Below, piece by piece: positions 2,987 through 26,597 of a stretch of DNA of 53,048 nucleotides. The position numbers and the translations under genes were made by a program. The stretch comes from Actinomycetes bacterium (GTDB lineage Bacteria; Actinomycetota; Acidimicrobiia; Acidimicrobiales; RAAP-2). The stretch spans positions 1-53,048 of the forward strand of contig JAKBAB010000003.1 in the NCBI GenBank assembly GCA_021815645.1, read 5' to 3'. Under the pieces are notes generated by a model. The model saw nothing but the letters and a program-made list of their open reading frames with translations. It had not been told where the DNA came from and did not search any database. Numbering within the stretch: position 1 is the stretch's first letter; every line of letters starts with the position of its first letter.

Positions 2987-3882
2987 ACTCGCCTCGCGGA
3001 ATTGCGAGTGAAAATTCCGTTGGGCCGAACCATGAGCGAAACGACCAATATCACCAGCGCGACCAAGATAATGGCGTTCGAGTTGATGTAGTCCCCTACG
3101 AACTGCAGAACGATTCCGAGCGCGACGCCCGAGACGATTGCGCCCACCGGACTTTCCAGACCCCCCACCGCGGCCGCAATGAAGCCAAAAGCGAAGATGC
3201 CGTCCATTACTTGGGGCGTCAGCCCGGTAAAGAAGTTGGAAGCAACCAACACGGTGGTGATGGTGCCCACCCCCGTCGACAACGCCCAGCCCAACGTCAA
3301 CATGCGACCCACGCGTACGCCCAGGAGGCGCGACACCTCGGGCGCCAGTGCGGACGCGCGTAGTTGAAGACCGAGTTTGGTGAAGCGAAATAGCGCCGCC
3401 ACCGCCGACATGACCACGAGGGCCGTGACGATCTCGTAGAGACTAAAGCTCGACAGCGCGATCGGCTTGCCCGCTAGTTGCCAGTCGATCGGTGAAAAGG
3501 GATTGGGAATCCCCCGAGGGACCGTTGACCAAATCGCCGCGGCGACGCCTTCGAGGACGATGAGAATCCCCACCATAACCACGACGGGATTGATCGGGGG
3601 TTTACCGTAGAGTCGCCGCACGACCACCCGCTCGGTCAAAGCGCCAATGGTGAGCCCCGTGATGATCGCGATAACCACGCTGGGCCAATACCCCAGGGTA
3701 CTGACGAAAATCACCATGCCGACGTAGGTGGCAACCATCGGCATGGCTCCAGCCGCGAAGTTCAAAATTCCCGCCGAACGCCAAATCAACACGAGACTCA
3801 GCGCCACGAGGCCGTAAATCATGCCGTTCGTCAAACCGCCCAAAACGTCACTCATAATCCGCGAAGTCAAAAAGGCGTCCAC
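2983..3882 (-). CDS. livH: Branched-chain amino acid ABC transporter permease (LivH-like)
   Basis: 'GGLTNGMIYGLVALSLVLIWRSAGILNFAAGA' LivH motif; overlaps the livM start. Confidence 0.9.
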   Translation of the reverse strand: MDAFLTSRIMSDVLGGLTNGMIYGLVALSLVLIWRSAGILNFAAGAMPMVATYVGMVIFVSTLGYWPSVVIAIITGLTIGALTERVVVRRLYGKPPINPVVVMVGILIVLEGVAAAIWSTVPRGIPNPFSPIDWQLAGKPIALSSFSLYEIVTALVVMSAVAALFRFTKLGLQLRASALAPEVSRLLGVRVGRMLTLGWALSTGVGTITTVLVASNFFTGLTPQVMDGIFAFGFIAAAVGGLESPVGAIVSGVALGIVLQFVGDYINSNAIILVALVILVVSLMVRPNGIFTRNSARRV

Positions 3883-10331: not shown

Positions 10332-13300
10332 TTGTCGTGCCAGGTGTGCTCAGGGGAGAACCCAGTCGGCAAGCGATTCTGCGGGGACTGCGGCGCGCCT
10401 CTCGCGCGAACCTGCCCTTCGTGCGGCGCTGAGGCCCGACCTGACAAGAGATTCTGCGCTGACTGCGGCGCCCTATTGGATAGCGCCACCGACGTAACGG
10501 CGTCGAACATGACCCAGCCCGTGTCACCTACCGGCGGCGCCGTGGTTGGGGCAGCACCGAGCACTGAGATTCGACATGTCTCGGTACTGTTCTGTGATCT
10601 CGTGGGCTTCACGGGGCTTTCGGAGTCTCGCGATCCGGCGGACGTCCGCGAACTGCTCTCGGGTTACTTCGATCTCGCCCGAGTGATCGTCGGTCGTTAC
10701 GGTGGGCTGGTCGAGAAGTTCATTGGAGACGCCGTCATGGCGGTGTGGGGCGCTCCGGTCGCCAACGAGGACGACGCCGAGCGTGCCGTGCGAGCCGCAC
10801 TCGAGCTCATCTCCGCGGTCGCCGCCTTCGGCCGTGACCACCGCGTCGATCTCGCAGCGCGCGTGGGGGTGGTGACGGGTGACGCGGCGACCACCGAGAC
10901 GCCAGAGGAGGGCATGGTGATTGGCGATCGGGTGAACACCGCCGCTCGCATTCAGTCCATCGCGCGGGTGGGTTCTTGTTACGTGGATGAGATGACGCGC
11001 ACCGCTACCGCCGCAGCCATTGAGTACAACGACATCGGTGAGCACGAGTTAAAGGGAAAAGTTGAGCCGCTGCGTCTCTTCGAGGCGACGCGGGTGATTG
11101 CCGCGACGGCTGGATCGCAACGATCGACCGTGCTCGAAGCACCCTTCCTCGGCCGCGACCATGAACTGCGCCTACTCAAAGATCTGTTTCACGTCGCGGC
11201 CGAGCGGCACTCGGCGCGCCTCGTGCTCGTGTCGGGCGTCGCTGGCGTCGGCAAGTCCCGACTGGCCTGGGAGTTCTACAAATACGTTGATGGGCTAGCC
11301 GTAGACGTGCTCTGGCACAGTGGACGCTGCCTGTCTTACGGCGATGGCGTGAGTTACTGGGCACTGTCGGAGATGATTCGCGCCCGGTTGCAGATCGGGG
11401 AAGAGGACTCCCTCGATCTCATCGGCGCTCGCCTTCGTTCCGGGCTCGAGCGCTGGATCCTCGATCCCAACGAGCGTTCCTTCATCGAACCCCGCCTGGC
11501 CCAACTCCTCGGACTTTCGACGGGCCTCGTCCTCGAGCGTGAGGAACTCTTCGCTGGATGGCGCCTATTCTTCGAACGCTTAGCCGAACACCTGCCGGTC
11601 GTCATGGTCGTTGAGGACCTGCAGTGGGCCGACGCTGGACTGACCGACTTCCTGGATTACCTACTCGACTGGTCGGCCGACCACGCCATCTACCTCTTGA
11701 TCCTCACCCGACCCGAAGGAGCGAGGCGCCGTGGCCTCGTGCTCAGCCGCCGCAACCTCACCAGCCTGACGCTCGATCCCTTGCCCGAAGAAGTGATGGG
11801 CGAGATACTTGACGCACTGGTGGTGGAGCTTCCCGCCGAAGCGCGCCACCGCATCATCGAGCGGGCCGAAGGCATCCCGCTCTACGCCGTGGAGACGGTG
11901 CGCAGTTTGATGGACCGGGGCACTCTGCTTCGTGAACTTGACGGGACCCTGCGCCTGATCGGCGAGCTCGGAGCCCTGGAGATCCCACCGGGGCTCAAGG
12001 CCCTCATCGCCTCACGCCTTGATTCCCTCACTGATGACGAGCGACGGTTGATCAAAGAGTGCGCCGTTTTGGGGGACTCCTTTCCCCGTCAGGCCATCGA
12101 AGCGCTCACCGACGCCGATCCCGCGATACTCGACGGACTCCTGGCTTCACTGGTGCGCAAAGAGGTGCTGACCGTGCGAGCTGACAAGCTCTCACCGGAG
12201 CGGGGCAATTACGCCTTTACCCAATCGTTGATTCGTTCCGTGGCGTACGACTCCTTGACCCGCTCCGAACGCAAGGCCCGACACGTGAGGACCGCGGCCC
12301 ACCTGCGCCGAGTCTTCCCCGACGAGGGTGCCGACGTCATAGAGATCATCGCCTCCCACCTGAGGGACGCTTACCAAGCGGCCAGCGGCGACTCGGACGT
12401 CGAGGAGCTGCGGGCCCTGGCGGTCACGGCCTACATTGGCGCTGGCGAGCGGGCGGAGTCGGTCGGCGCGCCGGCCGCGGCCGAGGCGGCCTTCGTCACC
12501 GCTTTGGCACTGAGTACCAACGAGGTCGGTCGGGCGACTCTATTGGAGAAGGCGGGCTCAATGGCCAGCCTGGTTGGGGCCAGTGATCGGGCGAAGGCTC
12601 ATCTCGAGGCGGCGGTGACTATCCACGTGGAAAATGGACGGGTAGTCGAAGCAGCGAGGGTGACCCAGAAGCTGGCCGCGGTGGTGGCGAACCTGGGCCG
12701 CGTCGAGGAGTCGGTTGCCCTGCTGCGCTCGGCACTCTCCTCACTCGATCCAGACAGTGCCCCCCCAACGGTGATCGCGGATCTCAATTATCAACTGGGG
12801 TGGAACCTTTGGTTCGCTGGGCGCCCCGCTGAATTGGCTGAGAGCATTGACCACGTCTTGACCCTGGCGCAGCACTTCGAACTGGCCGAGACCTTGGCCC
12901 GCGCACTGCGGGCCAAGGGATATCTCCTCTCCGGCGAAGGTCGTATGGCCGAAGCGTTCCTTTACATGGAAGCCAGCCTCGCGATCGCACGCGACAATGG
13001 TCTGGTGAGCGTCGAGTTGCTCACGGAGAACGCATTATCTGATCTCTCGATGTGCTTTGACCGTTCGGGATCCGAAGAGCACTGCCTGGCCGGCCTAGCC
13101 CTGGCGAGGCGTCGGGGGGCTCGCAGGGCCGAACAGGAACTGACTAACAACTTGATGTACATATTGACCGTCGCCGGCCGATTTGATGAGGCGGAGCAAC
13201 GCGCAAACGAGTTCCTGGAGTCGAGTTCCGGTGACGCCTTATTTGATTTAAACATTCTGCACTCGCGTCTGTGTTTCGTCGCCGCACTTCGCGGAGACAC

Positions 13301-13886
13301 GGAGGGAGCGAGACTCCACTTCGCGCATTGTCACGACTTCGCCGATACCGACGACATCCAGGATGCGGCAATGTACGCGTCGTTAGTGACGGCGATCGCC
13401 CTGGCCGAAGGAGACCATCGACGGGCTCTCGAGGCGGCTACTCAAACCTTGGACATCTGTATGAACCAAGCTCGGCTTCCCTCACACGAATCAGTGCGCG
13501 CCGCATACCCAGATGGCGTAGACGCCGCCCTCGCCCTCGGCGATCTCGACGCCGTCGATCGAATGGTGGCCCTCTTCGCCGGCCGGCCACCTGGGGCGGT
13601 GCCCCCGTTTCTTCGTATACACGTGCGTCGGGCACGGGCGCTGGCGGCGTCGGCGCGAGGTGACGACACCGAGGTGGAGACGGATCTCCGCGACGCGGAG
13701 GCGGACGTGGCCAACCTCGGGTACCGGTACTGGCAGGCTCGTTTCCAACTCGACTTAGCGGAGTGGTTGGCGCGTCAGGGCCGATCCGAGGAGGCCCGGG
13801 GGGTCGCCAAATCAGCGGCGGCGACTTTTGAGGACCTGCGCGTCGCTCCCATGCTTCTTCGAGCCCGTTCGATTTCCATCGCGTAG
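10332..13886 (+). CDS. Zinc-ribbon / class III adenylate-guanylate cyclase / AAA ATPase / TPR regulatory protein
   Basis: Two CxxC...CxxC ribbons (CQVC...CGDC; CPSC...CADC); cyclase 'VLFCDLVGFTGLSE', 'EKFIGDAVMAVWGAP', 'GDRVNTAARIQ'; Walker A 'GVAGVGKSR'; Walker B 'VMVVEDLQWAD'; TPR-like C-terminus. Probable TTG start. Confidence 0.92.
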   Translation: MSCQVCSGENPVGKRFCGDCGAPLARTCPSCGAEARPDKRFCADCGALLDSATDVTASNMTQPVSPTGGAVVGAAPSTEIRHVSVLFCDLVGFTGLSESRDPADVRELLSGYFDLARVIVGRYGGLVEKFIGDAVMAVWGAPVANEDDAERAVRAALELISAVAAFGRDHRVDLAARVGVVTGDAATTETPEEGMVIGDRVNTAARIQSIARVGSCYVDEMTRTATAAAIEYNDIGEHELKGKVEPLRLFEATRVIAATAGSQRSTVLEAPFLGRDHELRLLKDLFHVAAERHSARLVLVSGVAGVGKSRLAWEFYKYVDGLAVDVLWHSGRCLSYGDGVSYWALSEMIRARLQIGEEDSLDLIGARLRSGLERWILDPNERSFIEPRLAQLLGLSTGLVLEREELFAGWRLFFERLAEHLPVVMVVEDLQWADAGLTDFLDYLLDWSADHAIYLLILTRPEGARRRGLVLSRRNLTSLTLDPLPEEVMGEILDALVVELPAEARHRIIERAEGIPLYAVETVRSLMDRGTLLRELDGTLRLIGELGALEIPPGLKALIASRLDSLTDDERRLIKECAVLGDSFPRQAIEALTDADPAILDGLLASLVRKEVLTVRADKLSPERGNYAFTQSLIRSVAYDSLTRSERKARHVRTAAHLRRVFPDEGADVIEIIASHLRDAYQAASGDSDVEELRALAVTAYIGAGERAESVGAPAAAEAAFVTALALSTNEVGRATLLEKAGSMASLVGASDRAKAHLEAAVTIHVENGRVVEAARVTQKLAAVVANLGRVEESVALLRSALSSLDPDSAPPTVIADLNYQLGWNLWFAGRPAELAESIDHVLTLAQHFELAETLARALRAKGYLLSGEGRMAEAFLYMEASLAIARDNGLVSVELLTENALSDLSMCFDRSGSEEHCLAGLALARRRGARRAEQELTNNLMYILTVAGRFDEAEQRANEFLESSSGDALFDLNILHSRLCFVAALRGDTEGARLHFAHCHDFADTDDIQDAAMYASLVTAIALAEGDHRRALEAATQTLDICMNQARLPSHESVRAAYPDGVDAALALGDLDAVDRMVALFAGRPPGAVPPFLRIHVRRARALAASARGDDTEVETDLRDAEADVANLGYRYWQARFQLDLAEWLARQGRSEEARGVAKSAAATFEDLRVAPMLLRARSISIA

Positions 13887-14257
13887 TGCGGCGGTCACCG
13901 GCGACATGCAAGCACGCAAAAGTCCACGAGTGCAAGTTCGATAGCGCCCGCCGGAGAACGTGAGTAATCACCGAGGAGGTCGCTGTGAACGCGATCGTCG
14001 CTCCCGAGACGATGACCGGTCGCGACGGGGTCACCGTTCACCGTTTACCCCATCAGCGAGTGAGCTAACGCATGAATGGGCGCGTTCCTGCGAACTTACG
14101 TCTCCGTAGGAACGCTCAGGATTGACGGCTTCGTTGGAGTATTCGATGATGCCCGTCGCAGTAGCTCAGAAACCGCGGGCATACGCAAATTGGGAGAGCG
14201 ACGGCTAGTATCACGAGTCAATAGACCCGGTTGGTCTTGGTTTGGGGGTAGCCGCTA

Positions 14258-16048
14258 TTGCGTGACGGACTCATCAAACGCCGCTTCATGAGTGTGACGA
14301 GTTATCTCGACTACAACCGGGGCTGGGACCGTCTCCCTAAACCCTTGGCGTTGCTCACCTTGTTCGGCCTTCGCATGGTGCTTCGTAGAAATAATCTCTT
14401 CGACACCAGCGGTCAGCCGGTCCCGTGGGGACCAGAGGTGCCCACGGGACCTCGGAGTTTTTCGCGATCGTCGGATGGGAGAGGGACGGATCCCATCTAT
14501 CCCGACATCGGCAGTGCGGGAGCCCGGTTTGGGCGCAACGTGCCCATTGAAGGAACCTACCCAAATGATGTATTGAATCCCAATCCGCGAACGATCGCCA
14601 ACGAACTGCTGGCCCGACGTCGCTTTATCCCGGCCACGACGCTCAATCTCCTCGCCGCCGCCTGGATTCAGTTCGAAGTGCATGACTGGATGAGTCACGG
14701 CACGAACCTGGCCGACGATCCCTGGGAAGTGGAGCTAGACGAAGATGATCCGTGGCCCGTGCATCCCATGAAGATCCAGCGCACGAAAGTCGACGCGACC
14801 TCCGACGGCGGACCACCGACTTATCGCAACACCGAGACGCACTGGTGGGACGCATCACAGGTGTACGGGAGCAGTCTCATCTTCGAAGCGACGCTCCGGA
14901 CGTATCACCGAGGTCGGGTGAAGTTGACGTCCAACGGCGAGTTGACCTTCGACCCGCCGAATATGCCGCCGCTTCCCGGAGTCGACCTCGCCGCGATGAC
15001 CAACAACTGGTGGCTGGGTCTCGCCATGATGCACACGTTATTCATGCGCGAACACAACGCCATCTGCGAACTGCTCGCCTCCCTGCACCCCGATTGGGAC
15101 GACCAACAACTCTTCGATCACGCTCGACTGATAAACGCCGCCCTGATCGCGCGAATCCACACCGTGGAGTGGACTCCGGCGCTGCTGGCCGACTCGGACA
15201 TGGAGACGGGCATGAATTTCAACTGGTGGGGAATCCAGGGTAAGTGGCTGTGGAAGCACGTTGGGCGCCTTACCAAGAGTGAGGAGTTCAGTGGCGTCCC
15301 CGGATCGGACCTGTACTACCACGGCACGCCGTACTCCATGACCGAGGAGTTCATGTCCGTCTACCGCATGCATCCGCTCATCCCGGACGATTACAGCCTC
15401 CGCGAGAGCGCGAGCAACCAACTCATTGGCAACTTCAACTTCACCCAACTGTCGGGCACTTACACCCACGACGTGCTCGACGACGGTCGATTCCGAATGA
15501 AGGACCTCTTTTACTCATTCGGGACGAGCCACCCGGGGGCCATCGCACTGCACAACTATCCCGAGGGATTGCGACATTTCGCGCAACCCGACGGCACGCT
15601 CCTCGACCTGGCCGCAATCGACATTCTGCGCAATCGTGAACGCGGCGTGCCGCGCTACAACGAGTTCCGACGCAAGTTTCACTTGCGGCCCGCCGCCACA
15701 TTCGAGGAGTTCAGCGACGACGCCCAAGTGGTTGGCGACCTCCGGCGGATCTATCGCGACGTGGAGGAAGTCGACCTGATGGTGGGCCTGTACGCGGAGC
15801 GGCTTCCCGAGGGCTTCGCCTTCAGCGACACCGCCTTTAGGGTCTTCATCCTCATGGCGACTCGACGACTCAAGAGCGACCGTTTCTTCACCTACGACTA
15901 CACATCCGAGGTGTACACGAAAGAGGGCATTCAGTGGATCGAGAACAACACTATGAAGTCCGTCCTCCTTCGCCACTACCCGGCACTGCACACCGCTCTT
16001 TCCGGCGTGGAGAACGCCTTCAAGCCGTGGCGTACGGCGCAGAGCTGA
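14258..16048 (+). CDS. Heme peroxidase-superfamily fatty acid dioxygenase (alpha-dioxygenase/PGHS-like)
   Basis: 'LLARRRFIPATTLNLLAAAWIQFEVHDWMSHG' (distal His142), 'HWWDASQVYGSS', 'MMHTLFMREHNAICELL', 'VEWTPALL', 'EEFMSVYRMHPLIPDDY' (Tyr369, proximal His372). TTG start at 14258, or ATG at 14288. Confidence 0.9.
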   Translation: MRDGLIKRRFMSVTSYLDYNRGWDRLPKPLALLTLFGLRMVLRRNNLFDTSGQPVPWGPEVPTGPRSFSRSSDGRGTDPIYPDIGSAGARFGRNVPIEGTYPNDVLNPNPRTIANELLARRRFIPATTLNLLAAAWIQFEVHDWMSHGTNLADDPWEVELDEDDPWPVHPMKIQRTKVDATSDGGPPTYRNTETHWWDASQVYGSSLIFEATLRTYHRGRVKLTSNGELTFDPPNMPPLPGVDLAAMTNNWWLGLAMMHTLFMREHNAICELLASLHPDWDDQQLFDHARLINAALIARIHTVEWTPALLADSDMETGMNFNWWGIQGKWLWKHVGRLTKSEEFSGVPGSDLYYHGTPYSMTEEFMSVYRMHPLIPDDYSLRESASNQLIGNFNFTQLSGTYTHDVLDDGRFRMKDLFYSFGTSHPGAIALHNYPEGLRHFAQPDGTLLDLAAIDILRNRERGVPRYNEFRRKFHLRPAATFEEFSDDAQVVGDLRRIYRDVEEVDLMVGLYAERLPEGFAFSDTAFRVFILMATRRLKSDRFFTYDYTSEVYTKEGIQWIENNTMKSVLLRHYPALHTALSGVENAFKPWRTAQS

Positions 16049-16057
16049 GGTCGGACG

Positions 16058-17566
16058 ATGTGGCGCTGGCGTCGGGCATTCTGGAACTTCTTCATGGAGT
16101 TCAAGTTTCGCCACGCCAAGCCGATGGTGATTCCAGCGCCGATGATCCAGATCCGTCCGATCGTCCCGGTGCCCCTGGCCTCCCAGTTTCCCCGAATTCC
16201 GATTACGGGTGTCATGGTGGCCGACCACATCCCTGGCGACGAAGCCCAACTCCCGGCGCGGCTGTTCTGCCGGTTGCAGCTCGCCCTGGATCGAGTGTTC
16301 TCACCGATGCAAGTCGGTCTAGTGCCAATCGACGCCGACCCGGAGGTGGCCCTCGCACTCGCCTATCCCGCGAGCCACCGACGCAGTTTTCCGGCGCCGA
16401 CCCGGCCGACCGGCTTCGATCCGGTGCCGGACCTCGGTCGTTTGGCCGTAGACGGACCGTACTCGTGCTACGTGGAGAGAAGTGCTGCGGGCGTTTACAA
16501 ATGGGACGTCAGCGCGCTCGAGGGATTCGAGATACATCCGGGACTTCGCTCTCCGGCCGCGGTCGTGGAGTTCGCGCTGGAAGCCGGTTCGCGTTCCTTG
16601 CGAGCGACGCGGATCGACTCCGAGCTGGGTTCGTGCACGCCAGGCGACCACGACTGGGAACTCGCGCAACGCCTCGCGTTGTGCGGCGTGACTACGCACC
16701 TCTCATTGGTGCGCCACTTCAACTGGCTGCATCTCATGTCCGGTGGCCCGTTGTCGTTTACGACGAGGAACTGCCTACTCGCGACCCATCCCCTCCGTCG
16801 ACTACTCCAACCCCACGTCTACGCCACGCATTCGAGCAACCATATGGTGACGCTCGACCAGATGGCGCCGGGAGGCGACTTCGAGAACATCTTCAGCTTC
16901 ACCCACGCCGGCGTGTGCGATCTCTTCCAACAGTCCTGCGCCGACTCGGACCTGCGCCGGTTCAATCCCAACTTCGACGTGCGACTACGCGGCGTGGACG
17001 CCAGTGAGTTGGACTTGCCGGCGCACGAGAATTTCCGGGCGATATTCGACGTGATCCGCGCCCACGTGGAGCGCTATCTGAGGTTGTATTACGACTCCGG
17101 TGAGGCGATCGCCGCCGACGAGCAACTTGCGGCGTGGCTGGAGTCATTGGAGGCGTATATCCCTCACGGCGTCGCCGAGTTGGTGGGTGCGCCGTTCACG
17201 ATATCGGGCGCGTCGGAACTACTCGCGACGCTCGTCTACTTCACGACCGTCGAACACGAGGTACTCGGTTCGGGGGTGTGGAATTACCAACTTTGGCCGG
17301 ACGTACAGCCTCCGCGCGTCTACGCGAGTGGTCAGCGAATACCCCTCGACGTGTACGCGCGACTGGTCAACGCCAACTTCACCCTCAACGTACGGCGCAC
17401 ACCGTTGATGAGCGACTTCTCGTCGCTCGCGCTCGACGTTCGGGGCGCACAGGCGTTTCGGACGTTCCACGAAGACCTGACCCGACTGCAAGCAGCCATG
17501 GACGGGGCACCGACCACCGGCTGGCGTATTGAGCCGCGAATGCTGAAGGCGAACATCAACGCATGA
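16058..17566 (+). CDS. Lipoxygenase-like protein (short bacterial form without an evident PLAT domain)
   Basis: 'RHFNWLHLMSGGPLSFTTRNCLLATHPLRRLLQPHVYATHSSNH' matches the LOX iron region HxxxxH (His220, His225); 'VEHEVLGSGVWNYQLWP' gives the third His400; C-terminus NINA. Confidence 0.85.
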   Translation: MWRWRRAFWNFFMEFKFRHAKPMVIPAPMIQIRPIVPVPLASQFPRIPITGVMVADHIPGDEAQLPARLFCRLQLALDRVFSPMQVGLVPIDADPEVALALAYPASHRRSFPAPTRPTGFDPVPDLGRLAVDGPYSCYVERSAAGVYKWDVSALEGFEIHPGLRSPAAVVEFALEAGSRSLRATRIDSELGSCTPGDHDWELAQRLALCGVTTHLSLVRHFNWLHLMSGGPLSFTTRNCLLATHPLRRLLQPHVYATHSSNHMVTLDQMAPGGDFENIFSFTHAGVCDLFQQSCADSDLRRFNPNFDVRLRGVDASELDLPAHENFRAIFDVIRAHVERYLRLYYDSGEAIAADEQLAAWLESLEAYIPHGVAELVGAPFTISGASELLATLVYFTTVEHEVLGSGVWNYQLWPDVQPPRVYASGQRIPLDVYARLVNANFTLNVRRTPLMSDFSSLALDVRGAQAFRTFHEDLTRLQAAMDGAPTTGWRIEPRMLKANINA

Positions 17567-20500
17567 CCGGAATCTCCGCTGAGACCATGAACGTCACGAT
17601 CCTCTTCACGGATCTGGTGGGTTCGACCGAACTCTCGTCAAGGCTATCCGCGGAAGAAGCGGACGACTTGAGGCGGCGACACTTCTCGATTCTGCGTCAG
17701 TCGATCCTCAAGTCCGGCGGAACCGAGGTGAAGAACTTGGGTGACGGGCTGATGGTGGCCTTCAACTCCGCGTCGTCGGCCCTGTCGTGCAGCGTGTCCA
17801 TGCAACAGGGCGTCGAAAGGGACAACAACGTGCGCGGTCGCTCGATGGGTCTGCGGATCGGTCTGAGTGGTGGTGAAGTCAACGCCGAGAACGGTGACTA
17901 CTTTGGCGATCCGGTCATCGAGGCGGCGCGGTTGTGTGCATTGAGCGAGCCCGGTCAGATCCTGAGTGCGGAACTCGTGCGGGCCATGGCCGGTCGCCGT
18001 AATCGCTTCGCGTCGCGGCCCTTGGGCGCACTCTCGTTGAAGGGCCTGCCCGAGCCGATCGACGTCGTCGAGATCCTGTGGGAACCCATCGACGGTACCG
18101 ACATCCCCCTCTCCAGTCGCCTGGAGGTGCGACCGAGCGTGGGGACCGTCGGTCGAGAGTCTGAGATCTCCACGATCAACGACGTGTTTAAACGCGTCGC
18201 GGCCGACGGTGGGCGTGAGTTGGTCATCGTGTCGGGCGAAGCGGGAATGGGAAAGTCGACACTGGTGAGTGAGTTCGCGCGGTCGGCGGCGAGCACCGGG
18301 ACGCTCGTACTCTTCGGTCACTGCGAGGAAGACCTCGCCACGCCCTACCAGCTCTTCTACGAGGCGCTCGATCACTACGTCACCCACGCGCCCGAGGAGA
18401 CCTTGCGCGAGCACGTGGCAGTTCACGGTTCGGAGTTGGCCCGACTGGTGCCGGCAATGTCGAGCCGCGTGCCCGACCTCCCGCCTTCGAGAGCGACGGA
18501 CGCCGACACTGAGCGATTCTTGCTCTTCGCCGCAGTTGTCGGTCTCCTCTCGAAGTTGTCTGCGCAGCGCCCGGTCATCCTCGTCTTCGAGGACCTGCAG
18601 TGGGCAGACCGAGGGAGCCTTCTGTTGCTGCGCCATCTCGCGGCCGCGGAGCAGTCGACGCGCATTCTCGTACTCGGTACCTTCCGCGACTCCGAACTGG
18701 CCCGGGCCAGCGCGTTGCGCGAGACCCTCGGCGCGCTGCACCGCCACGGCAATTTGCACCGTATTGAGTTGAAGGGCCTAAGCGACCTCGGCGTGATCAT
18801 CTTCATGGAAGCCGCGGCCGGCCGATCCCTGGAGGACGCAGAAGTGCCGCTCGCGCAGGCGGTTTATCGCGAGACCGACGGTAATCCGTTCTTCGTGAGC
18901 GAGGTCCTTCGCCACCTGATCGAGACGGGCACCGTGCTTCAAGACGAGAACGGTCGTTGGTCGGCGCAGGACCTGGATCAGATGACCTTGCCCGACAGTG
19001 TGCGTGAAGTCATCGGCGGGCGTGTCGTGCGTCTCGGACCGGACGCTGCACGAGTGTTGTCAGTCGCGTCGGTGATCGGGCGCGACTTTGACCTGGACCT
19101 CCTGGCTAAGGCCACGGGCGCGCCGGAGGACGAACTGCTCGATACGCTCGACGCCGCCACGTCGGTCGCCCTGATCCGCGAGGTGGCCGACGCGTCCGGC
19201 CGCTTCAGCTTCGCCCACGCGCTTATTCAGCACACGCTGTACGCGGACCTGGGCCGCGCGCGCCGCGCCCAAATCCATCGACAGGTCGCAGTCGCGCTCG
19301 AGCAACTCCTCGCCGACCAGCCCGACGTGCGTATCGGCGAACTCGCCCGGCACTGGACCAACGCCACGCAGCCGGTGAACCTGTTCAAGGCCATTAACTA
19401 CTCCCAGCGCGCCGGTGACGCGGCTCTTCGAGCGTTGGCGCCTGCCGACGCTCTCACCTACTTCGTTAAGGCCCTCGACCTCGACGCGCAGTCCGACGTC
19501 GCCGACCCGATACTGCGCGTCGATCTGATGATTGGACTCGGAACGGCCCAACGTCAGACCGGGGACCCCGCCTTTCACGCCACGCTAATTAAGGCCGCGC
19601 ATTTAGCCGCCGACCTGAATGAAACGAGCCGGCTGGTTGCGGCCTGTTTGGCCACCGACCGGGGGTTCTTCAGCGCCATTGGCGCCGTCGATAAGGAGAA
19701 GGTCGAGATCCTTACCATCGCCCTCGAACGCCTTTCGAAGAGTGAACCGTCAAGGGCACTGGTCCTAGCGACGCTCTGCGCCGAACTGGCTGTGGGCACG
19801 TCCCTCGACTATCGCCTCGCGTTGGCGCGCGAGGCACTGTCGATCGCCGACACCCACGGCGACAACGCCGTGACGGTGCGCGTACTCAATAGCCTGGCGT
19901 TCCCTCTGATGGTCCCCGAACTAAGCCAGGACTCGCTCGAGCGCACCCAGCGCGCTATGACCCTCGCCGAAAACGTGGGCGATCCCCTCCAGATCCTTTT
20001 TGCCGCCCACTGGCGTGAGGAGGCCGCCATTTTGGCCGGCGATGTCGACGAAATGGACCGTGCGTTAGAGATGGTACACGAACTGGTCGAGCGTTTCGAC
20101 CAGCCGGGGCTTCGCTGGACCTATCTCTTCACCAAAGCGTGGCGCGCCATGGTGGCCGGTGACACCGACGTCGCCGAAGAGTTGGCCTTGGCGTCGTTCC
20201 AGATTGGCTCGGACAGCGGTCAACCAGACGCCACCGTGATGTACGGCGGCCAGTTGATCACCATCGGTCTGCAGCGCGGCACGCTGGGTGACCTAGTGGA
20301 GATCTTGATGCAGATGACCGTCGACGCGCCCGACGTGGGCGCCGCCGTGACCGCGGCCCTGACGTTGGCCCACGCGGAGGCGGGCAATCTCGACGCTGTG
20401 CGCGAGCTCCTCACCGAGATGTCCGCGAGGAACTTCGAGTCACCGATGGATGCCACGTGGCTCACGGCGATGGTCTGGCTCGCCGATGCGGCGATCGCTT

Positions 20501-20877
20501 TGGGCGATACCGCGATCATCGAGAAGATATATGACCTGTTGATGCCGTGGGCCGATCTGTGGCCGAGTAACGGCGCCGAATGCGAGAGTCCGGTGTGCCA
20601 ATACCTCGGTGCCTTGGCCACCTGCCTCGGTCGCTACGACGACGCCGAATCTTACTTTGCGCAAGCCATGTCCGAATGCGATCGCACCGGCGCCAAGTTC
20701 TTCGCCGCGCGGACCAATCTCATGTGGGGTGAGATGCTCGCGCAACGGTGCCGGGGTGCTGACCTCGACCGAGCGAGAGTGTTGCTCGAGGTGGCACGCG
20801 AACTCGCGGCGAAGAACCGCTATGCGAAGGTCGAACAACGGGCCGCCGTGGCGCTCGAGGCCCTCGCCGATGCGTAG
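17563..20877 (+). CDS. Class III cyclase domain / AAA ATPase / TPR regulatory protein, overlapping the LOX gene by ATGA
   Basis: 'ILFTDLVGSTELSSRL', 'VKNLGDGLMVAF', 'GDPVIEAARLCALSEPGQIL'; Walker A 'GEAGMGKST'; Walker B 'ILVFEDLQWAD'. Confidence 0.92.
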   Translation: MTGISAETMNVTILFTDLVGSTELSSRLSAEEADDLRRRHFSILRQSILKSGGTEVKNLGDGLMVAFNSASSALSCSVSMQQGVERDNNVRGRSMGLRIGLSGGEVNAENGDYFGDPVIEAARLCALSEPGQILSAELVRAMAGRRNRFASRPLGALSLKGLPEPIDVVEILWEPIDGTDIPLSSRLEVRPSVGTVGRESEISTINDVFKRVAADGGRELVIVSGEAGMGKSTLVSEFARSAASTGTLVLFGHCEEDLATPYQLFYEALDHYVTHAPEETLREHVAVHGSELARLVPAMSSRVPDLPPSRATDADTERFLLFAAVVGLLSKLSAQRPVILVFEDLQWADRGSLLLLRHLAAAEQSTRILVLGTFRDSELARASALRETLGALHRHGNLHRIELKGLSDLGVIIFMEAAAGRSLEDAEVPLAQAVYRETDGNPFFVSEVLRHLIETGTVLQDENGRWSAQDLDQMTLPDSVREVIGGRVVRLGPDAARVLSVASVIGRDFDLDLLAKATGAPEDELLDTLDAATSVALIREVADASGRFSFAHALIQHTLYADLGRARRAQIHRQVAVALEQLLADQPDVRIGELARHWTNATQPVNLFKAINYSQRAGDAALRALAPADALTYFVKALDLDAQSDVADPILRVDLMIGLGTAQRQTGDPAFHATLIKAAHLAADLNETSRLVAACLATDRGFFSAIGAVDKEKVEILTIALERLSKSEPSRALVLATLCAELAVGTSLDYRLALAREALSIADTHGDNAVTVRVLNSLAFPLMVPELSQDSLERTQRAMTLAENVGDPLQILFAAHWREEAAILAGDVDEMDRALEMVHELVERFDQPGLRWTYLFTKAWRAMVAGDTDVAEELALASFQIGSDSGQPDATVMYGGQLITIGLQRGTLGDLVEILMQMTVDAPDVGAAVTAALTLAHAEAGNLDAVRELLTEMSARNFESPMDATWLTAMVWLADAAIALGDTAIIEKIYDLLMPWADLWPSNGAECESPVCQYLGALATCLGRYDDAESYFAQAMSECDRTGAKFFAARTNLMWGEMLAQRCRGADLDRARVLLEVARELAAKNRYAKVEQRAAVALEALADA

Positions 20878-20941
20878 TCCTTGGTCGAACGGCTCAACGG
20901 TCAACCGGTCGTTGGACGACCTCGACCAGAGAGAGGGGTAA

Positions 20942-22144
20942 ATGACCGAACCAATTTCACTGTCAGACGCGCCGTGCGGCTACAAACGCGATCAAAAGTT
21001 GCAACGCCAATTCCTCGACGCAGCCGAACATCTTCGCGAGGTGGACGGCTGGCCCAACCCGGCGAACGCGAATCGACGGGAGCTTCGCGCCGACCTGGTC
21101 TTAGAGGGTGGTGGCGTCAAGGGGCTGGGTCTCGTGGGGGCCATCTTGGTCCTGGACGAGGCCGGGTACTCGTTTCGCGGCGTCGCCGGCACCAGCGCCG
21201 GCGCGATTGCCGCCACGCTCGTCGCGGGACTGACGCGCACGCAGCGAACGATGACCGATCTGCTCGGATTCATCCGCTCACTCGACTTCACCCAATTCAT
21301 GCCCGAGAGCAAGTTGCACAAGTTCCTGGACCACGTCGGCGGTCACGTCGTGGAGGCCGCGTCCGATGCGTCGATCCTCCTGCGTCACGAGGGCGTGTAT
21401 TCCGGTAACTACCTCGAGAACTGGTTGCGCCCAATCCTGCACGACCAGCTCGGCGTAAAGACGTTCAACGATTTGAGGCTCTCGACCGAAACAGACCCCG
21501 AACTAAGTGTGGCCCCGGGCCACGACTACAGCCTGGTGGTACACACGTCGGACATCACCCGTGGTCAACTGGTGCGCCTGCCGTGGGACTTCCCGTACTA
21601 CGGAAAAGACCCCGGTGTGCAGGATCCGGTCGACACGGTGCGCGCGTCGATGTCGATCCCCTTCTTCTTCGAGCCGGTACACCACGTCTCGCAGGAGGCC
21701 ATCGTGGAGATAGCCGCACCCAGCGGCGGTACGATCACGTTGCGCTACGAAGCCGGTTCCCAGACGTGGGTCGACGGGGGATTACTGGCCAACTTCCCGA
21801 TCCACGCCTTCGACCGCACCGACGGCAAGCCGTCGCGCTGGCCCACGATCGGGATAAGGCTCTCCCAGTTGCAAACCGATTTCCCGGCGACAGAAGCCTG
21901 CACGTCGACGTTGGAGGTGGCCCTGCGCACGCTCAAGACAATGTCCAATGAGTGGGACTCCTACGCCGTGACCGAGTCGACGGCTGCCAAGACGATCTTC
22001 GTCGACAACGCCGGACTGACCGCAACCGACTTCGGCCTCACCAAAGGTCAACAAGACACGCTCTTTCTAAACGGCGTACGATCGGCGACCGCGTTCATCA
22101 TCGCCAAGGCCCAGGCCGGCGGCGTACCCCGTTCGTCACCGTAG
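20942..22144 (+). CDS. Patatin-like phospholipase
   Basis: Oxyanion 'LEGGGVKGLGLVGA', nucleophile 'GTSAG' (Ser85), catalytic Asp 'VDGGLLANFPI' (Asp278). Confidence 0.92.
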   Translation: MTEPISLSDAPCGYKRDQKLQRQFLDAAEHLREVDGWPNPANANRRELRADLVLEGGGVKGLGLVGAILVLDEAGYSFRGVAGTSAGAIAATLVAGLTRTQRTMTDLLGFIRSLDFTQFMPESKLHKFLDHVGGHVVEAASDASILLRHEGVYSGNYLENWLRPILHDQLGVKTFNDLRLSTETDPELSVAPGHDYSLVVHTSDITRGQLVRLPWDFPYYGKDPGVQDPVDTVRASMSIPFFFEPVHHVSQEAIVEIAAPSGGTITLRYEAGSQTWVDGGLLANFPIHAFDRTDGKPSRWPTIGIRLSQLQTDFPATEACTSTLEVALRTLKTMSNEWDSYAVTESTAAKTIFVDNAGLTATDFGLTKGQQDTLFLNGVRSATAFIIAKAQAGGVPRSSP

Positions 22145-23326: not shown

Positions 23327-23995
23327 GTGCCAGAGAAAGTTGAACCACCCGTAGAGAGCGGGCGGCGCCGGCGACGCACATCCGTGGCTCCGCGTGAAGT
23401 GGTTCTCGGCTTAGATCGAATTGAAAGGCGCCTGAGTATCGCCGGTGCCGGCCTGGCCGTGCTGCTCGCCCTTGTGACCCTGGCGCAATGGATTCGCAAT
23501 ATCCCCAATACCACCACTCAGTCCCCTACTCACGCTCACTCGTGCGCAAATGGATTTCACTACGTAACGAGTTCGAAACTCTGTGAGATGACTTCGCACG
23601 CATCGCGCGGCGAGTGGGAAATCCGCTTCTCGTTCATTTTTGTGATCGCGCTTTGCATCTTGTACTTCGCGCTGCGCCGCAAGCGCGCCGGGGTCGTATG
23701 CTTCTCCGTTTTTTTGGGTTTAGGTCTCGGCGTCGGGACCGGCCTCGTCTTTTTGTTCCTAGGTGTCTGGCTCATAATTCGTGCGTACCGACTCCAAAAG
23801 TACGGCGAGGCATCGTTCTCGTCCTCTACGCGTGTCGCCAAAGAGCGCGGTCGTTCGCGACGAGCGGACCTTTCGACATCCAAATCCCCGTCCACTCGAG
23901 CAAAATCGGTGTCCCCGTCTTCGGGCACGACCCGGACGGTGGCGCCCGAGCCATCAAAGCGTTATACGCCGAAGAAGCCGCGGCGACGCCGCTGA
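23327..23995 (+). CDS. Hypothetical membrane protein (TM segments, basic Ser-rich C-terminus)
   Basis: Hydrophobic stretches 'AGLAVLLALVTLAQWI', 'FSFIFVIALCILYFAL', 'LGLGLGVGTGLVFLFLGVWLII'; start at GTG. Confidence 0.6.
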   Translation: MPEKVEPPVESGRRRRRTSVAPREVVLGLDRIERRLSIAGAGLAVLLALVTLAQWIRNIPNTTTQSPTHAHSCANGFHYVTSSKLCEMTSHASRGEWEIRFSFIFVIALCILYFALRRKRAGVVCFSVFLGLGLGVGTGLVFLFLGVWLIIRAYRLQKYGEASFSSSTRVAKERGRSRRADLSTSKSPSTRAKSVSPSSGTTRTVAPEPSKRYTPKKPRRRR

Positions 23996-23998
23996 CTC

Positions 23999-24733
23999 AT
24001 GTTCAAGCTCGGCATGGATTTTCCGACAAAGTGGGCGCGTGGTTACCTTGCGCGGGCCGCTCGAAACATAATCCATTCGTGCTTTTTTGGCCCTTACGTC
24101 CGGTTCCTCACGAGCTTAGAAGTCAGAGGCGCGGAAAACATTTCCGGCAAGGGCCCATTCATTTTCGCAGCGAATCACGCCAGTCACGCTGACACGATCA
24201 TCGTGCTCACCGCACTTCCCCACGATCGACGGCGACGAACAATCGTGGCCGCGGCGATGGACAGCTTCTTTATGAAGGCTGGGCAGGCATTTCGAACCGT
24301 CCTCGTCTTTAACGCGATACCCGTCGACCGACACAAGGTGAACCGCCGTAGCGCCCAGTTAGCCCTTGAACTCGTTGAAGACGGTTGGAATCTACTGATC
24401 TACCCCGAAGGAGGACGCACGCCCACCGGGCAGCCCCAAGAGTTCAAGGGCGGTGCCGCTTACCTAGCGGAACGTTCTCGTGCGGCGGTGGTACCAACGT
24501 ACATACACGAGTCGGGCTACCTGATGGGGCCGAAATACGCCAAGGCCCCAATTTACGTCGACCGTCCCTCGCAACGACGTCATCACGTCGTCGTCGCATT
24601 TGGTGTACCCCTGCACTGCGGCCCCGAGGAGAACATGCGCCGATTTGGCGCGCGCATTGAAGAAGCGGTGCTTCAGCTAGGCCGAGAGACGAGCGGCGAT
24701 CCTCTCTACGGTGTTACCCCACCCGCGCCCTAG
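23999..24733 (+). CDS. 1-acyl-glycerol-3-phosphate acyltransferase (PlsC family)
   Basis: 'AANHASHADTI' (HX4D), 'YPEGGRTPTG'. Confidence 0.9.
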   Translation: MFKLGMDFPTKWARGYLARAARNIIHSCFFGPYVRFLTSLEVRGAENISGKGPFIFAANHASHADTIIVLTALPHDRRRRTIVAAAMDSFFMKAGQAFRTVLVFNAIPVDRHKVNRRSAQLALELVEDGWNLLIYPEGGRTPTGQPQEFKGGAAYLAERSRAAVVPTYIHESGYLMGPKYAKAPIYVDRPSQRRHHVVVAFGVPLHCGPEENMRRFGARIEEAVLQLGRETSGDPLYGVTPPAP

Positions 24734-25428
24734 ACCTTTAACGCCCCACGGCGCTCTTCGTACAGATCGTCGGCCACGGTCACCAGGGGTTCGAGGCTGA
24801 CGCCCAGAACCGCCCCGAGAATCTCATCGGCCCACCAAGGATTAAGGGCGAGAACCGGTCCGTGGGCGTAGGTCGCCCAAACTCTCTCGGCAACGAAACC
24901 GTCTACTTTCCCGTCATTGCCTCGACCCCGCAGTACTTCGCCCAACGGCGTTACGCCCGCGCCCAGAGTCGTCGTGCCACCGTGGTTCTCGAATCCGACG
25001 AGAGCTCTCCCCTTCACGCGAACCGCCAGTTCACCGACGGCGCGCTTTTTAGCGCGGCGGGTCACCGCGTCAACGAGGTTGAGCCCGGGGTAGTCGTCTC
25101 GACCCTCAACGCAAAAAGTCGTGCCCAGGATCTGGAGTCCGGCGCACACCGCGACAACGAAGCTACCGTCTTCGACCCTGCTCGCGAACGAAGAGACGCG
25201 AAGTTGGTCGGCCGCTAATCCCTGGGGTCCGTCTTCACCCCCACCCAGAACAAAAAGCGTCGCGGATGGCACTTCCTCGCCGACGCCGACTACCACGAGG
25301 TTGGCGTCGATTCCCCGCTGCCGAGCCCGTTCAACGAGTACGCGTGCGTTGCCTCCGTCGCCGTAAGTTCCCAAGAGTTCCGGAAAGATAAGGGCTACGG
25401 TCAACACTCGACTGTCCTCTGTCGCCAC
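24730..25428 (-). CDS. gatD: Glutamine amidotransferase GatD (lipid II isoglutaminyl synthase subunit)
   Basis: 'LTVALIFPELLGTYGDGGNARVLVERARQRGI', 'VCAGLQILGTTF', 'GFENHGGTT'; adjacent to MurT. Confidence 0.88.
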   Translation of the reverse strand: MATEDSRVLTVALIFPELLGTYGDGGNARVLVERARQRGIDANLVVVGVGEEVPSATLFVLGGGEDGPQGLAADQLRVSSFASRVEDGSFVVAVCAGLQILGTTFCVEGRDDYPGLNLVDAVTRRAKKRAVGELAVRVKGRALVGFENHGGTTTLGAGVTPLGEVLRGRGNDGKVDGFVAERVWATYAHGPVLALNPWWADEILGAVLGVSLEPLVTVADDLYEERRGALKV

Positions 25429-26597
25429 TGTTCAAACGCCGTGTAATTCGCGACCACGGTAACTGGCGCTCCCGGTACCGCGAGCGAGTCGAGTTCGTCC
25501 ACTACCGTCGCATCGACTCCCGCGTAGAAGAGGCGAGTCGCCAAATCGAGCCGGCGCTCGCCCAAGCAGATCACCTTTCTTCCCGTGAGTTGCTCGAAGG
25601 GCACGTCGTAGAGCCACGAAGGATCCCGGCCATCGGCCACGCGCGCGTTTATTGCGATCCATAACTCTCCGGCGCCGATCAGGGGAAGTGCCGCACTGAA
25701 TCCGGCGGGGTTTTTGGCGAGAATAAGTCGAAGGTCACGGGGACCCCACTTTCGTATTGCGTAACGACCGGCGACACTGGTTAGTCCATTCAGTCGCGCG
25801 AGTGCGCTAGGTACGTCGGCGCCGAGGACCGACAGAGCGGTGAGCGCGACGGCGGCGTTAGCGACGTTGAACTCACCGGGAAGTGCGAGGTCTAGCGAGA
25901 GAGGGTGACCTCGCACCGTGAGTCCACCATCGGTGAACGTATCGACGGTGCTCGGTTTGGCGAACCCACACTCGCACTCCCACGACGTCTGCGAAAATCG
26001 AAGTGATTGCGCACACCGAGGGCACGACGCCGCGTCCAAACGCCACGGCGTAGGGACGTCGCACCACACCACTCGTGCCCCGTCGCGTGTCGCGTAGACC
26101 ACGAGCGGATCGTTGGCGTTGGCGACGAACGTCACTTCCGGACTGTTCTTAACCGCCTCACGCCAAAGTTCGGCGAGATGGCGAACTTCGCTGGCCCGAT
26201 CGAGCTGGTCGCGAGATAGGTTGAGCAGTGTCACAACGCTGGGGCGTGTCGCGACGATCGTTTCGGGCAGCCACGACTCATCGACCTCGAGCACCGCGCG
26301 ATTTCCCAGAGAGTCCGCCAGTGCGGCCACGTGGCCCTGGACCATATTGGAGCCGGTGGCGTTGGTGGCGACGTTCCCTCCCCAGCCCGCCGTAATCATG
26401 GCCGTCGTGGTCGTCTTACCGTTCGTCCCACTCACCAAGACGACGGTCCGGTCCCTAGTCAAGTCCGTTAGTAAATTGCCCGAAATCGCGAGACCGACTC
26501 GGCCACCGATGACCGTCCCCGACCCACGCCCGATTCGCCGGGCGAGGCGGTTAACGAAAATAACCGCCCCGCGGGCCACTTTGTAACGCCAGGTCAC
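25401..26597 (-). CDS. murT: MurT ligase domain protein (lipid II isoglutaminyl synthase subunit)
   Basis: Mur ligase P-loop 'VSGTNGKTTTTAMI', zinc-ribbon 'CPRCAQSL...CECGF', 'NPAGFSAAL'. Confidence 0.9.
   Translation of the reverse strand: MTWRYKVARGAVIFVNRLARRIGRGSGTVIGGRVGLAISGNLLTDLTRDRTVVLVSGTNGKTTTTAMITAGWGGNVATNATGSNMVQGHVAALADSLGNRAVLEVDESWLPETIVATRPSVVTLLNLSRDQLDRASEVRHLAELWREAVKNSPEVTFVANANDPLVVYATRDGARVVWCDVPTPWRLDAASCPRCAQSLRFSQTSWECECGFAKPSTVDTFTDGGLTVRGHPLSLDLALPGEFNVANAAVALTALSVLGADVPSALARLNGLTSVAGRYAIRKWGPRDLRLILAKNPAGFSAALPLIGAGELWIAINARVADGRDPSWLYDVPFEQLTGRKVICLGERRLDLATRLFYAGVDATVVDELDSLAVPGAPVTVVANYTAFEQWRQRTVEC

Follow-up and report, generated by a model that had tools for sequence, protein, structure and literature searches.

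Alpha-dioxygenases (alpha-DOX) and lipoxygenases (LOX) are known singly in bacteria. The plant and cyanobacterial alpha-DOX insert O2 at C2 of a fatty acid to give a 2-hydroperoxide, which is converted to a shortened aldehyde or a 2-hydroxy acid; proteins of the patatin family free fatty acids from lipids. The heme enzyme described here resembles the plant and cyanobacterial enzymes AtaDOX1, OsaDOX, CalDOX and LepDOX over its full length and shares with them the tyrosine, the proximal histidine and the His/Thr/Arg of the carboxylate site (PMC8720084); actinobacterial members are present in the tree of the same study. That study makes no mention of a partner LOX, a cyclase/AAA regulator or a patatin such as our locus has, and the relatives of our enzyme differ further in that they often carry a TPR-like N-terminus and in some cases replace the distal histidine by Arg or Gly.

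In Nostoc punctiforme, a linoleate 10S-DOX, which is not an alpha-DOX, and a hydroperoxide lyase related to catalases form a pair (Brash 2014, cited in PMC13049297), which as described includes neither a LOX nor a patatin or cyclase/AAA regulator. The diol-synthase operon of Pseudomonas aeruginosa and its oxylipin quorum sensing system ODS (PMC5155153, PMC6377657), which provide the precedent for bacterial oxylipin signals, likewise combine two fatty-acid oxygenating enzymes in one operon and have a regulator of their own, but the enzymes are others and act on oleate, and the receptor is of the LysR type, not a cyclase/AAA/TPR protein. As for the non-heme enzyme, LoxA, CspLOX2 and the coral AOS-LOX fusion have the LOX fold and the three histidine ligands in common with our LOX, which departs from them by a glycine at the fourth-ligand position, a C-terminal Ala/Gly and the lack of a PLAT domain. 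The coral fusion joins a LOX to a hydroperoxide-processing heme enzyme, a likeness to the present locus, in which the partner is an alpha-DOX instead. Finally, the animal PLA2-COX/LOX cascade shares this logic, with release first and heme and non-heme oxygenation after it; our locus has neither a COX nor a known receptor, and the resemblance is one of parts only. The families are each known, and so are two-enzyme bacterial oxylipin operons, but we found no description of a DOX-LOX pair, or of its cluster with cyclase/AAA regulators, in the open-licence literature searched.

Results

The window, by which we mean the whole 53,048-nucleotide stretch of DNA analysed, belongs to a MAG of 1.9 Mb that is 86.5% complete. 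Our check of the open reading frames recovered five genes on one strand between 10332 and 22144 (Table 1), and the junctions given by an earlier sequence-only reading are confirmed: DOX and LOX are 9 bp apart, the LOX stop and the CYC2 start overlap in an ATGA, and 64 bp separate CYC2 from the patatin gene. The Pfam and PDB-chain searches also agree with the families which that reading had named (patatin, dioxygenase, LOX and cyclase/AAA/TPR), with the heme enzyme on the alpha-dioxygenase side, and place both oxygenase reading frames within the dioxygenase and LOX families. By its geometry DOX-LOX-CYC2-patatin appears as a tight operon, while CYC1 lies 371 bp upstream of DOX and is probably a neighbouring regulator that stands apart. 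This gap contains a sigma-70-like match at a frequency no higher than in shuffled sequences, so that CYC1 may sit either in or outside the operon.

Table 1 Features of the locus and of its conserved flank, with their positions in the window.
Feature	Coordinates	Strand	Basis
CYC1: zinc-ribbon / class III cyclase / AAA_16 / TPR protein	10332..13886	+	Pfam
DOX: alpha-dioxygenase, heme fatty-acid dioxygenase	14258..16048	+	Pfam and PDB-chain comparison
LOX: PLAT-less lipoxygenase, DOX-linked subfamily	16058..17566	+	Pfam, alignment, AF2, Foldseek
CYC2: class III cyclase-like / AAA_16 / TPR protein	17563..20877	+	Pfam
Patatin-like lipid acyl hydrolase	20942..22144	+	Pfam and motifs
Conserved flank: membrane protein, PlsC-like acyltransferase, GatD/MurT-like pair	23327..26597		product names read from sequence

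The DOX matches the An_peroxidase profile at 2.4e-111. Compared with PDB chains, it gives full-length alignments to plant alpha-DOX with E-values from 1e-107 to 1e-111 (4kvj, 3.9e-111), whereas the match to PGHS reaches about 1e-20 in two partial stretches. With alpha-DOX ahead by about 90 orders of E-value we rejected a COX-like identity, which had been part of the original description as an alpha-dioxygenase/COX-like enzyme; judged by its sequence, the heme enzyme is a plant-type alpha-dioxygenase and not a COX. The residues Tyr369, His372, His301, Thr306 and Arg536 are invariant in all relatives whose sequence reaches them, and Arg537 is conserved beside Arg536, as read from the alignment blocks. 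Following the plant alpha-DOX structures, we take Tyr369, the counterpart of the tyrosine changed to Phe in the 4kvl variant, to be the catalytic tyrosine, His372 the proximal heme histidine, and His301, Thr306 and the arginine the carboxylate site, and the predicted active site is thus complete. The histidine of the HDW motif (142) is kept in the window protein, whereas some relatives have Arg or Gly in its place; this agrees with the report that the distal histidine of alpha-DOX is only partly conserved (PMC8720084). NCBIfam gave no match for either DOX or LOX.

The LOX is recognised by the lipoxygenase profile PF00305 at 2.4e-8 (33.4 bits against a cut-off of 23.6), only over the central residues 198-412, and no PLAT domain is present. 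An AF2 model built from 21 sequences has a pLDDT of 91.7, and the PDB matches listed by Foldseek for this model are all lipoxygenases (best E 2e-16, TMq 0.72), indicating that a divergent sequence adopts, as modelled, the lipoxygenase fold. The metal ligands His220 and His225 occur in 21 of 21 loci and His400 in all 18 sequences reaching it. Classical LOX use Asn or His, also Ser, as fourth ligand and the carboxylate of a C-terminal Ile or Val. Here, the position four residues after His400 is a glycine (Gly404) in 18/18 sequences reaching it, and the chain ends at the classical place but with Ala or Gly in place of Ile (INA in the window; INA, MNG or VNG overall); a terminal carboxylate remains available. 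Catalysis is therefore not to be assumed, and the protein may be inactive or catalyse another reaction. The idea that this metal site is unique had to be softened, since a LOX from a Nostoc plasmid also combines Gly at the fourth-ligand position with a C-terminal Gly. With respect to substrate, the Pfam search of the 86.5%-complete MAG finds one acyl-ACP desaturase (PF03405) and no PF00487 desaturase; the organism may thus have no obvious polyunsaturated substrate of its own, in which case polyunsaturated acids would come from an external source or the LOX would use a different substrate.

With the LOX profile, 20 loci were found in the 85,462 genomes scanned, many of them on MAG contigs and three identical with the records G157, G403 and G410. 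A DOX, intact or truncated by the contig end, lies directly beside the LOX in 17 of the 19 evaluable loci, with the window counted and two loci cut by contig ends (L034, L036) left out. At an eighteenth (L020), in a Pseudonocardiales MAG which also has an intact pair (L022), a damaged DOX remnant (3492-3879) lies by an intact LOX, and a DOX neighbour is absent only at L028. The arrangement exceeds chance, and chance proximity was rejected on these counts together with the cyclase-linkage statistics given below. The loci span Actinomycetota, Acidobacteriota and Pseudomonadota, the hosts being Pseudonocardia, Mycobacterium/Mycolicibacterium, Marmoricola, Acidimicrobiia, Acidobacteriota, Tabrizicola and a betaproteobacterial MAG. 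The gene order changes from DOX-LOX in the window to LOX-DOX in Pseudonocardia and a divergent arrangement in G157, a variation that speaks for selection to keep the two genes linked, and LOX and DOX distances are correlated (r 0.48, p 0.001).

On the other hand, DOX without LOX is commoner, both in relatives from the same class (G416 and G361, on short contigs from genomes in which no LOX was found) and in plasmid records; among the plasmids examined no LOX-DOX link was seen, plasmid LOXs and DOXs lying apart. That DOX is often alone and LOX rarely suggests that the LOX needs the DOX more than the DOX needs the LOX.

The four-family neighbourhood which the sequence-only reading expected to be conserved recurs in G403, from another family of the same taxonomic order, and on an Acidobacteriota contig (L021) with weaker patatin support. 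In G403 a DyP-LOX fusion, a TPR-DOX and a patatin gene follow each other on a single strand with overlaps of 4-8 bp, and the locus also has catalase-family and cyclase/AAA genes, one of each; the row in L021 consists of patatin, alpha/beta hydrolase, cyclase/AAA, DOX and LOX. Across all loci the DOX-LOX pair forms the core, the cyclase/AAA regulator is frequent and the patatin is found in three. The window patatin matches its Pfam family at 1.8e-25, with the motifs GGGVKG (oxyanion loop), GTSAG (GxSxG) and DGG intact; the other two are those of G403 (2.7e-25) and L021 (4.8e-9, weaker, with the serine motif SVSGGS). We rejected the patatin as a core member on this count, a profile made from the three patatins having added at most one weak match among all loci. 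On a Calothrix plasmid (L085, 5986-13737) an alpha-DOX gene is followed a few kb further on by genes for a GMC oxidoreductase and a patatin, and there is no LOX.

CYC1 and CYC2 both contain Guanylate_cyc and AAA_16 domains with weak TPR matches, and CYC1 has a double zinc ribbon in addition. The class III catalytic set (two metal-binding Asp, Lys, Asn and Arg) is complete in CYC1, which has a paralogue (39%) at C8 of its own genome. In CYC2 the transition-state Asn is replaced by Ile (FGDPVIEAARL), and cyclase domains at Mycobacterium and other loci also vary in their catalytic residues. Since CYC2 and several others are without the full set, the domain may serve as a sensor and not as an enzyme. 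Counted with PF00211, class III cyclases number four in the own genome (two of them at the locus), one in Tabrizicola (at its locus), four in the Acidobacteriota genome and 22-37 in mycobacteria. A cyclase/AAA neighbour is present in five of nine lineages, for which random placement gives p of about 6e-6 with three of the nine background rates assumed to be 0.05.

In the organism's class, LOX occurs in 9 of 392 genomes, and every class locus on a long enough contig (7/7) lies within 2 kb of a cyclase/AAA gene, with a chance product of about 1e-12 to 5e-11 if the loci are independent, which they are not wholly, as some share a cluster type. Because these loci comprise different LOX subfamilies, DOX-less ones included, the cyclase/AAA partner is a trait of the LOX clusters in the class and not of the window operon alone. 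At the mycobacterial loci the cyclase/AAA gene is divergent from DOX, and the Pseudonocardia loci have no such neighbour. At three mycobacterial loci (L024, L027, L029) the cyclase/AAA gene adjoins a gene for an FAD-binding squalene-epoxidase-like monooxygenase (79-86% identical).

The flank downstream of the operon (Table 1) is common to congeners, and the operon is absent next to it in those examined, five of which have unrelated genes at this site. Nearly all sampled congeners have a homologue of the MurT-like flank gene (45-63% identity), indicating that the contig belongs with its genome. No window-type LOX was found in the sampled congeners, one of which (G195) has a LOX of a different kind; in the tree, the window LOX groups most closely with the LOX of G403 (support 0.97). 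From this patchy distribution we infer horizontal transfer of the operon.

Discussion

Taken together, the occurrence of the DOX-LOX pair in at least three phyla looks like a real, regulated oxylipin-forming pathway, and we consider the locus likely to be a regulated, horizontally mobile operon for the double oxygenation of fatty acids. The patatin would release free fatty acids from lipids and the DOX, by a Tyr-radical/heme mechanism, would insert O2 at C2 to give the 2-hydroperoxide and from it a shortened aldehyde or 2-hydroxy acid; its LOX-fold partner would oxygenate the same chain or isomerise its hydroperoxide. The near-obligate pairing suggests that the two enzymes act sequentially on one substrate, which would yield doubly oxygenated products, and the cyclase/AAA/TPR protein would sense a signal and gate the expression or activity of the pair. 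In this scheme the catalytic activity of the LOX, its substrate, the order of the steps, regulation by CYC2 and any role in signalling are all presumptive. The sequence-only reading had gone further and drawn a resemblance to the animal/plant PLA-COX/LOX cascade in prokaryotic form. Its logic of release, heme and non-heme steps is retained, and the COX is not; given the atypical metal site of the LOX and the missing PF00487 desaturase, we put an endogenous polyunsaturated cascade of the PLA2-COX/LOX type forward only conditionally. A wider view, which we regard as possible though doubtful, is that a hitherto undescribed class of regulated oxylipin cascades is widespread in bacteria, with several LOX subfamilies (accompanied by an alpha-DOX, a homologue of the coral-type allene oxide synthase or a fused lipase) each tied to a class III cyclase/AAA/TPR protein as lipid-signal sensor or relay, as a prokaryotic counterpart of eicosanoid signalling.

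The same enzymes could instead form a catabolic or lipid-remodelling module which makes no signal, the patatin and the alpha-DOX shortening acids by alpha-oxidation and the LOX-like protein processing or detoxifying hydroperoxides together with catalase or DyP proteins. Chain shortening by alpha-DOX is established, the metal site of the LOX is atypical, and at other sites DOX has P450, FAD enzymes, cytochrome c and hydrolases as neighbours. Catalase-family genes lie at G403 and L021 (convergent at the latter), the G403 LOX (L011, 10906-14229) is fused to an N-terminal DyP-type peroxidase-like domain, with DyP_N just below the cut-off, and the Tabrizicola locus has a free DyP gene (L031, 3587-5227); as partners that would process hydroperoxides, these genes speak for the oxylipin-operon reading as well. 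However, the operons are small, with no beta-oxidation or aldehyde dehydrogenase gene recognised among the genes profiled, and linkage to a large cyclase/AAA/TPR protein would be unusual for such a set and extends to unrelated LOX clusters; we find this explanation rather unlikely.

We give a similarly low probability to chemical defence or secondary metabolism, in which antimicrobial oxygenated lipids or aldehydes would be switched on by the cyclase/AAA protein. It overlaps with the oxylipin-operon reading, as both make oxylipins and differ in the purpose of the product. The patchy distribution, the many gene orders and the variation of accessory enzymes between loci would suit it, as would the gene upstream at L022 for a SARP/BTAD-NB-ARC-TPR protein, a regulator type of antibiotic clusters; but the operon has no recognised export or self-resistance gene, and no product is known.

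A Pycsar/CBASS-like attack on membranes, with a cyclic nucleotide activating the patatin and the dioxygenases peroxidising membranes to kill infected cells, is very improbable: PADLOC relates CYC1 and CYC2 to PycC (1.6e-17 and 2.9e-6) and the patatin to CBASS phospholipase effectors (2.7e-5), and the accessory genes occupy a variable genomic site, but these domain-level matches are to be expected of any class III cyclase or patatin domain, CYC2 is without the catalytic Asn, most loci have no patatin, and no recognisable defence gene was noticed at the site in congeners.

The oxylipin-operon reading has a practical side, as the near-obligate DOX-LOX pair makes the purpose of bacterial oxylipins testable in cultured species, namely Pseudonocardia acaciae, P. 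eucalypti and Mycolicibacterium stellerae. Further gains are a LOX subfamily whose metal site is altered and related clusters that bring a LOX together with an allene oxide synthase homologue.

Other LOX clusters

Further LOX cluster types were seen besides that of the window. In a third type (L097, 11485-15142; L098, 10386-14236; L017, 7906-8841), a family of 302-320 aa proteins (42-53% identical) is encoded between or near the LOX and the cyclase/AAA gene; these proteins have no Pfam or PDB match, and the predicted structure reaches a pLDDT of only 41. A second type, present in G195 from the window's genus (L016, 4758-12841) and in G291 (L015, 8708-16607), has a canonical LOX (PF00305 at 4e-65 in L015) with a large AAA/cyclase protein next to it; in L016 this protein is 1761 aa long with the order kinase-AAA-GAF-cyclase. 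It also encodes a protein of 371-373 aa, whose L015 copy has coral allene oxide synthase (1u5u, 1.4e-48) as best PDB match. Finally, a Lipase_3-lipoxygenase fusion is encoded one base from a cyclase/AAA gene in G362 (L017, 8831-14729), bringing release and oxygenation together in a single chain.
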